Of a DNA stretch of 64,000 nucleotides, positions 2,810 to 63,352 are shown piece by piece. This DNA comes from a virus. The stretch's first letter is position 1. Every line of letters begins with the position of its first letter. Position numbers and translations under genes: made by a program. The notes beneath the pieces are model-generated. The model made no database searches, was not told the DNA's origin, and worked only from the letters and a program-made list of their open reading frames with translations. The stretch lies in the IMG/VR virus record IMGVR_UViG_3300036774_000066, positions 92,610 to 156,609 of that record. The stretch is one strand, 5' to 3'.

Positions 2810-3622
2810 CTAAGTCGTACACTCCTTCAAAACTTCCTGCATCGCAGCAACTCCCACAGCATCCCCAGACGATTGACAGTCTGCCATAATTGACTGAGTA
2901 TAGCGAGAATGGTAGTGATCCCTAATCAAGTCTTTCTTGCGTGTAAACCACCCTCCAATATGAGGAGGATAGACTACTTCTTTTCCTACTGCCCGTGCTC
3001 CTGTTGAATCCGGGGGAACCTGTGCCACAATATCTCGCCCGTTAATCACACGAGTACAGTCAACAGGAAGCATATTATACTGGTCCCTAAAGTCCTTCGT
3101 CCCTGCCCTTGGACACCCGAAAAAGATTGCTGAGTGTGGTATGTCAAGCTGCTTCCCAACATACCCAGAGCAAAGCGTTCCTAACGCCCCACCCCTGGAA
3201 TGACCTGTAATCAGAAGACTTTTCAGCTTCCAGAACCTCCAAAAACTTCCAGCACTCTTCTTGGTCACATGCTCTACATCTTCCTCACCAATAGACTGCT
3301 TGATATACTGCAACAAATACTGAGTAACCGAAGGCTCAAAGTATTCCCATGATGTAAAGAATCCCTTATGCACAACATCACTTTCCCATTCAGACTTTCC
3401 AGCCAAAGGCAAAATATCAAAGTTAGACACCCACCCAAGATCATCTGACGTTGGACAAAAGGCAATCACAATTCGATCAGAAAATTCTGCTATAAAGGCA
3501 TAGTCAGTATCGTTCCACATAGGAGTAAAAATCAAACTGTCCGCTACAAGAGGGTGCGACGAATCCTCTGGCTTATGAGAAGCCCTCTCTGCAAACCGCC
3601 ATGCATCTGCAATTGCTTTCAT
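2810..3622 (-). CDS. Class 3 lipase-like alpha/beta hydrolase
   Basis: 270 residues. The nucleophile elbow GHSRGGALG (around residue 140), the aspartate in INGRDIVAQVPP and the histidine in the DHYHSRY segment give the Ser-Asp-His order of class 3 lipases. The upstream strand IVIAFCPTSD and the FFTSWEYF region also fit that fold. No signal peptide or membrane segment is evident, so it should be cytoplasmic or packaged. Expected chemistry is ester hydrolysis of lipids; the substrate is unknown. It precedes a terminator and follows the TSCPD gene by 10 bases. A role in lysis or membrane attack is only a guess. Confidence 0.8.
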   Translation of the reverse strand: MKAIADAWRFAERASHKPEDSSHPLVADSLIFTPMWNDTDYAFIAEFSDRIVIAFCPTSDDLGWVSNFDILPLAGKSEWESDVVHKGFFTSWEYFEPSVTQYLLQYIKQSIGEEDVEHVTKKSAGSFWRFWKLKSLLITGHSRGGALGTLCSGYVGKQLDIPHSAIFFGCPRAGTKDFRDQYNMLPVDCTRVINGRDIVAQVPPDSTGARAVGKEVVYPPHIGGWFTRKKDLIRDHYHSRYTQSIMADCQSSGDAVGVAAMQEVLKECTT

Positions 3623-3632
3623 AAATCATCTC

Positions 3633-4310
3633 TTAACATCTGGAAAATCCACACGTACACGAAACACAGCCAGACTCATGCCGTAATTTCGCTCTACAGT
3701 CAGGGCAAAGTCCTTGACTTACCCAAAAATCTTCCCCTCTCCCCTCGTCACCAACAACCCTATGGGGTATAACTCCCAATCGTTCTGCCTTCTCAACAAT
3801 TGACTCTTCCTTGTATTTCTGTTCCTCAACTTGATGTATGCGAACTTCTCTTGCCTCAATAGACTTTTCTCTAAGGTCTTCCGTCGCAGAAAAAATCGCC
3901 TTCAGTTCCCCTTGATGCTGTTCAAAAAACTTTTGCGCTTGTAAAGTCTTCTTCATTGCAGACGCTAAAGCCCGCGAACAAGAGGAATTTCCTGTCTTCT
4001 TAAACGCCTCATCCTTTCCGGCACGGTATCGTGCTGTCGGACACACCTCTGACTCCAATTGGTCAATAATCTCCTCAATAGGAGTTCCCCTCTGTAAGTG
4101 CAAAGAGACAAGCCGCCCCGTCATCTTTGTACTTGACGCACACCCACCCTTAGAGGATGATCCACAAAACACCTCTATCAACCGTACCTTATCGTGCCAA
4201 TTAAACTTAATAGAGAAGAATGCGGCACCACAACCTGTTTCTTCTCTGAATGTAAGTCCAATGGTAGGATTATCTCTGTGAACTCTTGACAGATTTGTAG
4301 TGTCATCCAT
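3633..4310 (-). CDS. Stand-alone TSCPD-domain protein with C-terminal zinc knuckle
   Basis: 225 residues. Residues about 25-115 match the TSCPD domain: TGCGAAFFSI, EVFCGSSSKGG, then LVSLHLQRGTPIEEIIDQL and an ESEVCPTARY segment. This domain is normally found at the C-terminus of B12-dependent (class II) ribonucleotide reductases, or alone. A helical linker follows, and the C-terminus has CPDC...CVSCTCGFSRC, like the NrdJ C-terminal cysteine cluster. The catalytic reductase domain is absent here and no reductase gene is in the window. It may be an accessory subunit or regulator. It shares a TGATG overlap with the upstream gene. Confidence 0.7.
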   Translation of the reverse strand: MDDTTNLSRVHRDNPTIGLTFREETGCGAAFFSIKFNWHDKVRLIEVFCGSSSKGGCASSTKMTGRLVSLHLQRGTPIEEIIDQLESEVCPTARYRAGKDEAFKKTGNSSCSRALASAMKKTLQAQKFFEQHQGELKAIFSATEDLREKSIEAREVRIHQVEEQKYKEESIVEKAERLGVIPHRVVGDEGRGEDFWVSQGLCPDCRAKLRHESGCVSCTCGFSRC

Positions 4311-5947: not shown

Positions 5948-6529
5948 TTACTCCCTTATGTCAAGAGATTCCGACTCAAACTTCTCAAACGACTTCATCC
6001 CCTTGATCTTCCCGGCCAACGCCTTACTAACCTTGTTGTACCAGGCAATATCCTTCTGACGCTTCTTGACCGTTTTGTTATACTCAGTCACGAAAGCCAG
6101 AAACGCAGCATGAAAATCCTTTCGCCTCTTCCGCATATTATTGGTCCCGGTAATCAATCTCTCCCTCACGGCCTGCCGCCACTTGACAAGATCATCAACC
6201 GTATTATCCTCAACTGCCTTTGCTTCCTGCACACAATGAAGAGCACTTTCCAAGTGAAGATTTAGAAACTCAGTAGAAAAAGACTTGCCATGCGTCCATC
6301 TCTGACGCAGAAACTCCATCGTTCCTTCCGGGTCAAGTCCGATTCTCGCTCCTTCAGCAAAAATTCCTTCATACAACAACTTACGGTCTTTCCGAGCATT
6401 CTCCTTGACAAAATCATCTGCGATCCTTTTTGCACTATTGTCTATCTCAACAACCCGCTTTACATCATCAACATCAACGGTCTTCCTGACCTTAGCAACA
6501 GGGTTTCTTCTTACAACTTTCGTAGCCAT
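5948..6529 (-). CDS. Hypothetical helical protein
   Basis: About 193 residues. Very basic N-terminus (KVVRRNPVAKVRKTVDVDDV), then a long, mostly helical, highly charged body ending near KSFEKFESESLDIRE. Two tandem ATGs exist; the second has better spacing from AAGGAG. The basic tail might bind nucleic acid. No family recognised. Confidence 0.6.
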   Translation of the reverse strand: MATKVVRRNPVAKVRKTVDVDDVKRVVEIDNSAKRIADDFVKENARKDRKLLYEGIFAEGARIGLDPEGTMEFLRQRWTHGKSFSTEFLNLHLESALHCVQEAKAVEDNTVDDLVKWRQAVRERLITGTNNMRKRRKDFHAAFLAFVTEYNKTVKKRQKDIAWYNKVSKALAGKIKGMKSFEKFESESLDIRE

Positions 6530-6941: not shown

Positions 6942-6972
6942 AAAAAAGGGGAAGAGCTTTCACTCCTCCCCT
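6942..6972 (-). terminator. Strong rho-independent terminator
   Basis: Minus strand: a 10-base-pair stem AGGGGAGGAG/CTCTTCCCCT (one G-U), loop TGAAAG, then TTTTTT. It closes the GC-rich, apparently untranslated region downstream of the prepilin-like gene. Confidence 0.85.
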
Positions 6973-7208
6973 CCGGTCAAGCTGCCGTGCGACAAAGCCG
7001 CTGCTCTACTTTGCCGCGTTACCCCACTACGGGCCTACACTTTTGTTGATAGAGCGTAGTGGCTCCACCCTTTTGTGTGCAGGGGCGAGATGTTGGTGCC
7101 CTGTAAGTTTCGGCAACTTTCTCTAACGAACCGGGCATCCTTCGGGAAAACCCCGTAAGGCACGCGCTGGTCCGCTCTCTGTTAATACGCTGACCTCTCC
7201 AAAAATCA
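6973..7208 (-). ncRNA. Putative structured non-coding RNA, GC-rich
   Basis: A 236-base gap between the prepilin-like gene and a terminator, in a genome that otherwise packs genes end to end. It is clearly more GC-rich than its surroundings. Minus-strand stems: GCGGCAAAG/CTTTGTCGC (7017-7009 with 6997-6989), a perfect CCACTACG/CGTAGTGG (7062-7055 with 7031-7024), GTGCC/GGCAC (7163-7159 with 7100-7096) enclosing CGGG-loop-CCCG, and a CGG/CCG hairpin just before the terminator. An 88-codon frame at 7019-7285 lacks a ribosome site and overlaps the prepilin gene. It does not match tRNA, tmRNA or RNase P signatures that I know. Its 5' end is not defined. Confidence 0.6.
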
Positions 7209-7610
7209 TCAGGACTTAGGCTTGTACTTTCGCAACAGACGACCATTACAATACGTCCCGGCTTTGTCCCATTGCCAAGGAGCATACCGAAATACTGCTA
7301 CCTCAACAGAATCCCCCTTCACCACATTGGCAAACTGACGGTCCTCGGAAGAAAAAGTCACGACCTCGTTGCCAATGTCAAGATCAACTGCAAAGGAAAA
7401 TGTACCAGAGGGAAGCCCACCACCGGCACTACGCCCGGCAACCACAGACATACTCATGTTGGAACACGCCGTTACCTTTCCGATAAACTCCTTCCGAGAA
7501 AAGAACTTGTACCCCGCAGTATAGATAAGACTCCCGATGATTCCCACGATCACGACCACAACCATCAACTCAATGAGAGTGAAACCACGCAACCACTTCT
7601 TCTGAAACAC
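7209..7610 (-). CDS. Type IV prepilin-like / pseudopilin-like protein
   Basis: 133 residues from a GTG start with GGGAG six bases upstream. The N-terminus is a textbook class III signal: short basic leader MFQKKWLRG, then the cleavage site before FTLIELMVVVVIVGIIGSL, with Phe at +1 and Glu at +5. The hydrophobic helix would anchor it in the inner membrane until a host PilD-type peptidase processes it. The rest is a small beta-rich domain with two cysteines, including EDRQFANV and the APWQWDKAGTYCNGRLL segment. Unusual in a phage. It might interact with host type IV pili or secretion pseudopili, but no assembly genes are present. The longer GTG start at 7667 lacks a ribosome site. Confidence 0.75.
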   Translation of the reverse strand: MFQKKWLRGFTLIELMVVVVIVGIIGSLIYTAGYKFFSRKEFIGKVTACSNMSMSVVAGRSAGGGLPSGTFSFAVDLDIGNEVVTFSSEDRQFANVVKGDSVEVAVFRYAPWQWDKAGTYCNGRLLRKYKPKS

Positions 7611-7639
7611 AACAGGCTCCCTTCTGTAAATGTGAAAAG

Positions 7640-9306: not shown

Positions 9307-10083
9307 TCACTCGCTCAATGTTTTGTGGATCGTCCAAAAGTCATCTGACAAATTCCGATCTGCGAGATAGTCATACGGAATTGTAAAATGCCCTGTCATT
9401 CCCCACGTCGCACCCCACGAGTTACGGACCAAAAACCGCTTCTGAGTATCATCATAGCCTACACACAGCACGGCATGACCTCCAAGAACCTGCTCACCAG
9501 ACTTAGGCATATCCACAATACCCGTCTGTGCAACATACGAACCCTCAAAACTCTCATACACGGTAAACCCAAAAACAAAAGGATACCCCAAGGATAACTG
9601 AGTTCGCATGTCGTCAACTGTATTAAGACGGGTATAACTTAACGAATCAGCAATCTTATGTGGGGAAGCTGCTGCATAGCAAGACAATGAAGGCTTCTTT
9701 GTAAACCTTGAAATAATATACGGCCACATACTCTCAGGGCACACCCCCAAAGAAAACAAAGTCTTCACCCCGTCTCGTATCGCAGCACCGGAGTCATACC
9801 TGACAGTACCTTCAAGTTTCCTTTCGTTATAGTAGATAAAAAGACGACTGAACATTATTGGAGTCTTCTTATCCTTCAAGTCAAGAAACTCGATTGCAGC
9901 AGAAAGGGCATTGGCAGTACATGATCCCAACTGTCCCTGATCGTAAACAGGAGGACAAAAAGTTCTCAAATCTACCACAGGGGGAAGGGAAGGAATACTC
10001 TTTTTGTAAACATGGTCGCGTCTGTCAGGTAAATCCGGCTTCCATCCGTATCTACTCATCTCAGGCTTTGAAAAAATCCACAT
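9307..10083 (-). CDS. Papain-like (C1 family) cysteine protease
   Basis: 258 residues. The QGxxGSC motif in YDQGQLGSCTANALSAA gives the oxyanion Gln and catalytic Cys (about residue 56), LGGHAVLCVGYD gives the His, and VRNSWGATWG gives the Asn. The short N-terminus (YGWKPDLPDRRD) is typical of bacterial and phage C1A enzymes without a long propeptide. No signal peptide. GGAGGAG precedes the ATG, and a TATACT late-type box sits about 20 bases upstream. It may process a host or virion protein; the substrate is unknown. Confidence 0.85.
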   Translation of the reverse strand: MWIFSKPEMSRYGWKPDLPDRRDHVYKKSIPSLPPVVDLRTFCPPVYDQGQLGSCTANALSAAIEFLDLKDKKTPIMFSRLFIYYNERKLEGTVRYDSGAAIRDGVKTLFSLGVCPESMWPYIISRFTKKPSLSCYAAASPHKIADSLSYTRLNTVDDMRTQLSLGYPFVFGFTVYESFEGSYVAQTGIVDMPKSGEQVLGGHAVLCVGYDDTQKRFLVRNSWGATWGMTGHFTIPYDYLADRNLSDDFWTIHKTLSE

Positions 10084-10100
10084 AACTCCTCCTCTGTTAA

Positions 10101-10106
10101 AGTATA
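10101..10106 (-). promoter_or_regulatory. Putative late promoter box (TATACTTTAA)
   Basis: Minus strand TATACT followed by TTAACAGAGG, 18 bases before the protease start. It shares the TATACTnAA pattern with four other sites and has no -35 at the usual distance. Confidence 0.5.
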
Positions 10107-10109
10107 GAG

Positions 10110-10607
10110 TCAAGCTGGCTGAACTGAGTCCAACGAATCCACCCGAAATTCAGCATCGTCATAATGGATCAAAAAATATCGGTTACACCCGGCATTGACC
10201 TCCCTAACCGCGAGATTCTGAAACATCACAATATCCCCCACATTTACGTCAGGACGGCTGTAATTCCGACCCTTGGGAACATCAATCACCTGTTGACCAA
10301 AGCTGTTCCTACGCCCTCCCCCGGATGACCAATACACCGATTTCTCTCCAAGCCGCACAACCTTACCTATCCTCCACACACGCCAACACGTCGCCGGAAT
10401 AATCAATCCAACTTTAGACTTTACTTCCTGCACAAGTGGCTCGACCATGATATAAGGCCCGATGATCGTCAACATATCGGCAACAATCAACTCTCGACCA
10501 CAACCCATACATCTACGACTCTCCCGTGCCTCTAAGACTTTTCCCTCGTCAACATCTTTCCATTCCCGTGTCTTGAGACAAAATTGGCAAGCATACGGCT
10601 CACTCAT
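10110..10607 (-). CDS. GroES-like co-chaperonin with N-terminal zinc finger
   Basis: 165 residues. Residues 48-155 follow the Cpn10/GroES pattern: IIGPYIMVEPLVQEVKSKVG then LIIPAT (the strand, mobile-loop and GG-IIP region), RIGKVVRLGEK, DVNVGDIVMFQN and the final RYFLIHYDDAEFRV strand. Ahead of it, C7/C10 and C33/C36 form a likely four-cysteine zinc site. Phages such as T4 (gp31) encode co-chaperonins that pair with host GroEL to fold the capsid protein; the same role is inferred here. A glycine-rich loop (SSGGGRRNSFG) interrupts the domain. The zinc-finger fusion is unusual. Confidence 0.65.
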   Translation of the reverse strand: MSEPYACQFCLKTREWKDVDEGKVLEARESRRCMGCGRELIVADMLTIIGPYIMVEPLVQEVKSKVGLIIPATCWRVWRIGKVVRLGEKSVYWSSGGGRRNSFGQQVIDVPKGRNYSRPDVNVGDIVMFQNLAVREVNAGCNRYFLIHYDDAEFRVDSLDSVQPA

Positions 10608-61348: not shown

Positions 61349-63352
61349 CTATTCTATTGGACGTACTCTCGGTTCCTTTGACATATTGTAAAGTACCAAT
61401 CTTTCCCTTGCCGAAGGATCAATCTTAAAAATTTCTTTCAAGTTCAATCCGTGAAATCCTTTTGGACAAACCCAAACAGTTCTCTTTCTAATTCTTGGTG
61501 TAAAAACAGTATTGAAATCTTTATTCTTAACAGTTTCACTATACGTATCCCCGAATGCACCATCCGTCAACTGAATAATAATATCAGGGCAATGGCACTT
61601 GGTAAGTGCTGCTACAAAATTGAAGGTAAAGTCAGTATTACCACCATCAAACTTATCAGCAAGTACACGCTTTAAGTTAGTATCAGAAAATCCTACCAAC
61701 CTGAGATATTTACTCCTGTCAAGAGAACCCCAAAAGAAAACATGCACAACGGCACTTCCCAAAATAGCCCGATAAGACTCAAAAAAATCCCTCAAGGCTT
61801 CCAATGCAGGCTGAAACACATGCATTGACTTAAAGCTACCAGACCTATCTGCCATTATGAGAACATTCTTAACTTTCCTTTCCTCAACACTCCCACCCAT
61901 TGCCCCTTCAACCTCAATCCTACGAGAAATCACGTTAGGATCACGCTTTTCGTCTACACTAATAATGTGTTTCAAAACACGCCTCATTATCTCCCGCCAA
62001 CGAGACTCTGACCCAATCCCTCTCAGAGCAGGAATCTTGGAAACGTCAATAACACCCTCTCCAAGCGCATTATCAATAATACTCTGCGGGTCAAAATCTT
62101 CCTCACCAAGTTCATTCTTTTTTATCGTACCATTACGACGCATTTCTTCCAAAGCCTTCTGTACTGCCTCGACTACTGCTTTGTCAATCTCATCGTTTGT
62201 TGCAGTAGTTCCCGGCTTTACTTCCTCCTCACTTACTTGATTCATCAAATCAATACCAGCCTCAGTACCGTGACGAGATTCCACACCCTCCTTTGCCCTT
62301 TTCAAAGCCTCTTTTATCTGCTGTTCTGTTCTCTTTGCTTGTGCCAGAATATTGTCAAAAGGATCAACGGGAATACCGGGAATACCACCTTCCCCTCCAC
62401 CTTCTCCTCCACCTTCTCCTCCACCTTCCCCTCCACCTTCCCCGCCCTCACCACCGGGAGTACCGCCTTCTCCACCGCCTTCACCTCCACCTTCCCCGCC
62501 CTCACCACCGGGAGTACCACCCTCTCCACCTCCACCTTCTCCACCACCTTCACCTCCACCTTCTCCTCCAATTTTAGGCATTTCCAAAACGCGTACCTGA
62601 TCTAAAGTAAGACCAGAGTACACATCACCAACAGACTCATTTGTGTCTTCTGGTATTACCTTAACAGAAATATGCCCATCATCCGAAATATCAATTACTT
62701 TAGCTGTCTCTCCTGTTGAAGTTACTTGTACAACAGACCCAATAGGTAGGATAGATTTAAGACGCTCCCCACGGGTACTCCCTCCCAAATTTTTCTTTTT
62801 ACCTTCTCCACCTTGCTTTCCTGTACCTTTGCCCTCACCGCCTTCTCCACCCTCTCCACCTTCTCCACCCGCGCCTGCACCTGTGCTACCCTTCTTGCCC
62901 TTTCCGGCCTTCTTGCCTTTTCCGGCCTTCCCTGCACCGCCCTCACCACCTTCTCCACCTTCACCGCCCTCACCGCCTTCCCCTCCACCGCCCTCTCCAC
63001 CTTCTCCACCCTCACCGCCTTCTCCACCTTCACCGCCCTCTCCACCCTCACCACCTTCTCCACCCTCACCACCTTCTCCACCCTCACCGCCCGCGCCTGC
63101 ACCTGTGCTGCCCTTCTTGCCCTTTCCGGCCTTCTTGCCCTTTCCGGCCTTCCCTGCACCGCCTTCTCCACCCTCACCGCCCTCACCGCCTTCTCCACCC
63201 GCGCCTGCACCTGTGCTGCCCTTCTTGCCCTTTCCGGCCTTCTTGCCTTTTCCGGCCTTCCCTGCACCGCCCTCACCGCCTTCTCCACCCTCACCGCCTT
63301 CTCCACCCTGAACACCCGATGAACCTGGACCCGCGCCTACCTCTCCTGACAA
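61349..63352 (-). CDS. VWA-domain protein with long Gly/Glu repeat region, 5' end chimeric
   Basis: Up to 667 codons, but the true 5' end is lost. Codons 1-14 are foreign (see the topoisomerase piece). Codons about 15-330 are repeats of GGE and blocks like GAGKAGKGKKAGKGKKGSTG, interrupted by a folded stretch (GSVVQVTSTGETAKVIDISD then DDGHISVKVIPED). The C-terminal 200 residues form a VWA-like domain with a complete metal site: VLIMADRSGSFKSM (DxSxS), FDGGNTDF (Thr) and IIQLTDGAFGD (Asp). It resembles the VWA-like domain of DUF2201/CobT-type proteins, which often work with MoxR-type AAA ATPases. A metal-dependent protein contact role in head assembly is possible. A TTG start and a weak ribosome site are artefacts of the join. 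Confidence 0.65.
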   Translation of the reverse strand: MSGEVGAGPGSSGVQGGEGGEGGEGGEGGAGKAGKGKKAGKGKKGSTGAGAGGEGGEGGEGGEGGAGKAGKGKKAGKGKKGSTGAGAGGEGGEGGEGGEGGEGGEGGEGGEGGEGGEGGEGGGGEGGEGGEGGEGGEGGAGKAGKGKKAGKGKKGSTGAGAGGEGGEGGEGGEGKGTGKQGGEGKKKNLGGSTRGERLKSILPIGSVVQVTSTGETAKVIDISDDGHISVKVIPEDTNESVGDVYSGLTLDQVRVLEMPKIGGEGGGEGGGEGGGGEGGTPGGEGGEGGGEGGGEGGTPGGEGGEGGGEGGGEGGGEGGGEGGIPGIPVDPFDNILAQAKRTEQQIKEALKRAKEGVESRHGTEAGIDLMNQVSEEEVKPGTTATNDEIDKAVVEAVQKALEEMRRNGTIKKNELGEEDFDPQSIIDNALGEGVIDVSKIPALRGIGSESRWREIMRRVLKHIISVDEKRDPNVISRRIEVEGAMGGSVEERKVKNVLIMADRSGSFKSMHVFQPALEALRDFFESYRAILGSAVVHVFFWGSLDRSKYLRLVGFSDTNLKRVLADKFDGGNTDFTFNFVAALTKCHCPDIIIQLTDGAFGDTYSETVKNKDFNTVFTPRIRKRTVWVCPKGFHGLNLKEIFKIDPSARERLVLYNMSKEPRVRPIE
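62379..63310 (-). repeat. Low-complexity Gly/Glu and Lys/Gly repeat array
   Basis: Two blocks (62379-62572 and 62812-63310) of 6-9 bp units coding GGE/GEG, with three copies of a 100-bp unit coding GAGKAGKGKKAGKGKKGSTG plus AGAGGEGG. GC-rich against the rest. The contig join to the topoisomerase gene lies at its outer edge, as expected for a repeat that misleads assembly. Confidence 0.85.

Follow-up and report, generated by a model that had tools for sequence, protein, structure and literature searches.

A lone prepilin-like protein with an orphan mature domain in a myovirus-like phage contig

The locus and its phage

The window that we analysed is a stretch of 64,000 nucleotides (positions 92,610 to 156,609) at the end of the 156,609-bp virus record IMGVR_UViG_3300036774_000066. 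It carries, on the minus strand like all the clear genes of the region, a small gene whose product resembles a type IV prepilin, with the following features in window coordinates.

7617..7624, minus strand: Shine-Dalgarno sequence GAAGGGAG, with a 6-nt spacer to the GTG at 7610-7608
7209..7610, minus strand: prepilin-like gene of 133 aa, GTG start, stop included (coding-potential test)
7584..7610, minus strand: basic leader MFQKKWLRG with Gly-1 at its end, predicted prepilin peptidase cut (sequence, PF07963, TIGR02532)
7500..7583, minus strand: hydrophobic N-terminal helix FTLIELMVVVVIVGIIGSLIYTAGYKFF, from Phe+1 and including Glu+5 (PF07963, TIGR02532, AlphaFold)
7212..7499, minus strand: orphan mature domain, predicted to be periplasmic, with C49 and C121 (homologue searches without a match)

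The gene is real and its motif is not expected by chance. When codon use was compared with that of the phage's own long genes, the prepilin frame scored +47.6 log units, against -29 to -71 for the other five frames. Simulation of random contigs with matched composition gave an expectation of 0.2 loose prepilin motifs per contig, and the strict motif did not occur in 20 simulations. Within the 156,609-bp contig the motif scan found this prepilin motif and no second one, in agreement with the Pfam profile. The GTG start and good ribosome site that the initial annotation had read from the letters were recovered, with GAAGGGAG ahead of the GTG, at the coordinates it gave but on the minus strand, which it had not mentioned. 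The phage-encoded prepilin-like protein that it described is confirmed, and is solitary over the entire contig. The initial annotation had also stated that no pilus assembly gene lies nearby; this stands for the prepilin peptidase (Peptidase_A24) and the T2SSE ATPase, neither of which gave a match in a profile search of the whole contig.

The contig is myovirus-like. Among its genes are those of a contractile tail sheath, an A-family DNA polymerase and a major capsid protein that has relatives among T4-like phages. The closest capsid and sheath proteins, at about 40% identity, are those of Bacillus phage SP-15 and Listeria phage LIS04, and for the sheath also Microcystis phage Mel-JY01, which, as a clue to the host, points weakly to this set of phages. 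Searches with the capsid and DNA polymerase retrieved one other contig only, IMGVR_UViG_3300031772_000001 (167,660 bp), with gene order in common, 94% identity over the best capsid segment and 73% identity in the DNA polymerase. The matching site of this relative, where the KTSC gene and a structured RNA lie downstream, holds other genes and no prepilin; the window gene is thus accessory.

The minus-strand neighbours of the gene encode a class 3 lipase (2810-3622), a TSCPD-domain protein, a KTSC protein and a papain-like (C1) peptidase (9307-10113), the lipase and the peptidase being observations in their own right in a phage. The TSCPD domain (3633-4310, minus strand), which is related to the end of ribonucleotide reductase, stands alone here and has a cysteine-rich tail. 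Farther along the same strand, a 667-aa protein (61349-63352) has long GEGGEGG repeats ahead of an apparently globular C-terminal part. Between the prepilin and KTSC genes lies a structured RNA (6945-7119, minus strand) that ends in an intrinsic terminator, folds better than 100 of 100 shuffled sequences (z -4.7) and has no match in Rfam. Folded independently, the RNA at the same place in the relative (about 6085-6320 of locus L009, minus strand) gives the same multi-helix junction at low sequence identity.

A prepilin signal ahead of an orphan mature domain

The N-terminus of the protein reads MFQKKWLRG/FTLIELMVVVVIVGIIGSL, the longer stretch after the leader being FTLIELMVVVVIVGIIGSLIYT, and has all the elements of the prepilin-type N-terminal domain, namely a short basic leader, Gly-1, Phe+1, Glu+5 and a hydrophobic helix. 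It scores 30.6 bits with PF07963 (cut-off 21.2) and 32.5 bits with TIGR02532 (cut-off 16.3), so that the complete prepilin peptidase site proposed initially is borne out. AlphaFold places a helix at residues 12-39, with a pLDDT of about 90 at residues 11-30. The glutamate at +5 is required for assembly or methylation, not for cutting. As read from the sequence, so perfect a site favours processing by the host.

More specific pilin models cover only the first 25-30 residues. The closest of them for the N-terminal helix are GspH and GspG, whose scores (30 bits against a cut-off of 80 for GspH, 25.1 against 88.85 for the GspG equivalog) lie far below their thresholds. The phage family phrog_3433, labelled "pilin", aligns at residues 7-28 only, with profile positions 19-40 of 127, and thus falls short of a match to the whole profile.

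The mature domain, of about 95 aa, is an orphan. Searches of viral contigs, phages, plasmids and species genomes with this domain or the whole protein returned chance matches and no homologue, as did a scan of viral contigs with a hand-made motif of the domain. The domain alone gave no match in Pfam or PHROGs, and PDB sequences gave weak, N-terminal matches, with nothing convincing beyond residue 35. Scans of 84,980 species genomes for exact peptide patterns, a method limited to close relatives, revealed no relative of the domain; the searches by tblastn and HMM had a wider reach than these pattern scans. Matches in plasmids were rejected as antisense to a fimbrial gene, and a Salmonella phage match because its protein has no prepilin signal. 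The AlphaFold mean pLDDT is 47 for the whole protein and 34 for the mature domain, which gives no usable model. Both computational checks suggested at the outset, a structure prediction of the mature domain and a search for homologues in other phages, were thus run and came back empty. The initial annotation had named homologues lacking the Gly/Phe/Glu site as evidence against its reading; since the domain has no detectable homologue, this does not bear on it directly, and conservation of the protein's own site cannot be measured.

Lone prepilin-like proteins in other phage contigs

Lone prepilin-like proteins are widespread across phage contigs. A scan of viral contigs for GFTLIELM retrieved at least 120 loci, and the matches listed include host-like major pilins together with many small proteins that stand alone and differ in their mature parts. 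In 13 contigs chosen for comparison, from the two families below and others, the large terminase was identified in 8; Peptidase_A24 was absent from all 14 contigs (the window contig included), and none of the 14 passed the T2SSE cut-off. This kind of protein is already known at the level of sequence, as PHROGs holds phage prepilin-like families, one of them named "pilin" and several listed as unknown. A literature search to which most subscription journals were closed found no paper on the function of phage-encoded type IV pilins. To this kind the window protein contributes an orphan mature domain; the survey of families with interchangeable anchors is the more general result.

The first family, (a), is defined by a small phage domain with the pattern GeRtGvv.KlSkKGl.CKTWEGE, and was collected by its KTWEGE motif with the N-terminus disregarded, except for two members (L057, L063) that came from the prepilin scan. 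These two have intact prepilin signals. Most members carry the domain on lipoprotein signals (L145, L147, L148, L156, L162, L175), and one has a decayed prepilin-like helix (L150, MKQKGLILIDWV). The domain has no match in PHROGs and nothing convincing in Pfam. These sequences show that a prepilin helix can substitute for another anchor. A kinship between this domain and the mature domain of the window protein was considered and dropped, as profile comparison with hhalign gave a probability of 1.6%.

The second family, (b), comprises small prepilin-like proteins with the layout MKQRGFTLIE-helix-CIEGYKF...LDEFGKGVRC (L222-L289). It was collected by the C-terminal 48 residues only, which gave 69 loci; the 68 that were read comprise 56 distinct members. 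Gly-1 and Glu+5 are both present in 49 of the 56; in two more, Gly-1 is kept but position +5 is Gln or Asn (L266, L282). The anchor is plain or decayed in four (L253, L276, L283, L289), and a cut-short sequence (L288) also lacks the site. Among the aligned sites Gly-1 is found in 51/51 and Glu+5 in 49/51 (0.28 bit), whereas the variation in helix columns 9-23 amounts to 1.6-2.7 bits. Parsimony on the family tree gives about five anchor losses, the alignment having too few columns for a safe count. This pattern indicates that the entire prepilin signal, Glu+5 included, is under selection in some phages, and as Glu+5 is kept although cutting does not need it, the family appears to have been selected to meet the filament machinery. 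The family seems to be undescribed although widespread, with members in contigs of 331 and 374 kb and in a freshwater cyanophage isolate (Synechococcus phage BUCT-ZZ01, UTS52068.1). Its two-cysteine signature, CI(E/D)GYKF / GKGVRC, is absent from the window protein, which does not belong to it.

Possible roles at the host inner membrane

Taken together, lone phage prepilin-like proteins probably act in the host inner membrane, where they may serve as decoy pilus subunits. For the window protein, our preferred reading, to which we give a probability of about 0.42, is that an accessory gene encodes a host-processed, inner-membrane-anchored periplasmic protein whose action on type IV filaments may be that of a decoy minor pilin. 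Its hydrophobic helix would serve for insertion into the inner membrane by the host, whose prepilin peptidase would cut after Gly9 and methylate Phe+1, leaving the 95-aa domain facing the periplasm. There the protein could meet a host platform, that of a type IV pilus, a type II secretion pseudopilus or a competence pseudopilus, and disturb or alter the filament, with an effect on competing phages or on host behaviour. The initial annotation had put forward entry into host pili, a block to pilus-dependent phages or altered motility as effects that the protein might have. We slightly favour some action on type IV filaments over none, judging from the signal and its counterparts in other phages.

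One might also ask whether the helix is just a tether, cut or not, which holds in the inner membrane a periplasmic domain aimed at something other than pili, for example at DNA entry or receptor exclusion. We regard this as a serious possibility, though short of probable. It accords with the lipoprotein, intact prepilin and decayed prepilin-like anchors that carry one and the same domain in family (a), and with the plain or decayed anchors and the two proteins without Glu+5 in family (b). The perfect site of the window protein speaks against it, since Phe+1 and Glu+5 would be superfluous for an anchor, as does the conservation of Glu+5 in family (b). The decoy reading is supported by an unrelated family of lone prepilins that conserves Gly-1 and Glu+5 while the helix drifts, and weakened by the lipoprotein signals of most members of family (a), which favour a plain anchor role. 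As the families hold members without the site, yet the site of family (b) is strongly conserved, both readings stand; and as the window protein belongs to neither family, both serve as analogies only.

Other explanations fit less well. That the phage carries a working host pilin, a normal minor pilin of the host filament that aids the infected cell as an auxiliary host gene, would agree with GspH and GspG being the nearest specific models, but that likeness ends after the first 25-30 residues, far below the equivalog cut-offs, and the pattern scan of the 84,980 species genomes, which reaches close relatives only, revealed none for the mature domain; we consider it rather improbable. A virion or assembly-related membrane protein whose helix came to resemble a pilin by convergence is very unlikely: the gene does sit amid small reading frames of unknown function, about 15 kb away from the tail genes, but the structural module (about 22-62 kb) does not include it, the region around it differs from one relative to another, and the related phage does without it. 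A chance reading frame without function, for which the lack of homologues of the mature domain might be invoked, has a negligible probability given that motif, ribosome site and codon use agree.

Type IV pili are phage receptors. One might speculate that in many tailed-phage lineages lone decoy prepilins with varied periplasmic domains use the host prepilin peptidase and filament machinery to exclude other phages, and that the window domain is a new fold among them; we find this generalisation rather doubtful at present. If lone phage prepilins do pass through the host peptidase and platform, they would represent a widespread and apparently unstudied phage route to host surfaces. The surveyed families supply the same domains in intact, Glu+5-lacking and lipoprotein-anchored versions, which makes the question directly testable.

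Compared with known systems, the window protein has in common with type IV prepilins (PF07963 N_methyl, TIGR02532) the leader, Gly-1, Phe+1, Glu+5 and helix, but no known pilin globular domain was recognised after its helix. The phage prepilin-like families phrog_3433, 11263, 27437, 13280, 11596 and 10597 have the same N-terminal segment, over the first 25-30 residues only, and the mature part of the window protein matches none of them. Family (a) resembles it in that a small phage domain is borne by a prepilin helix in some members, although the domains have no profile similarity; family (b) likewise consists of small solitary prepilin-like phage proteins, but with a different and shorter mature domain. 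The comparison with PfsE of Pf phage, a small protein by which type IV pili are blocked at the inner membrane, concerns action alone, as there is no known kinship with the window protein. When PfsE binds to PilC, twitching stops and pilus-dependent phages are blocked (PMC8764522), and as a precedent for phage attack from the inner membrane on type IV pili we count it in favour of the decoy reading.
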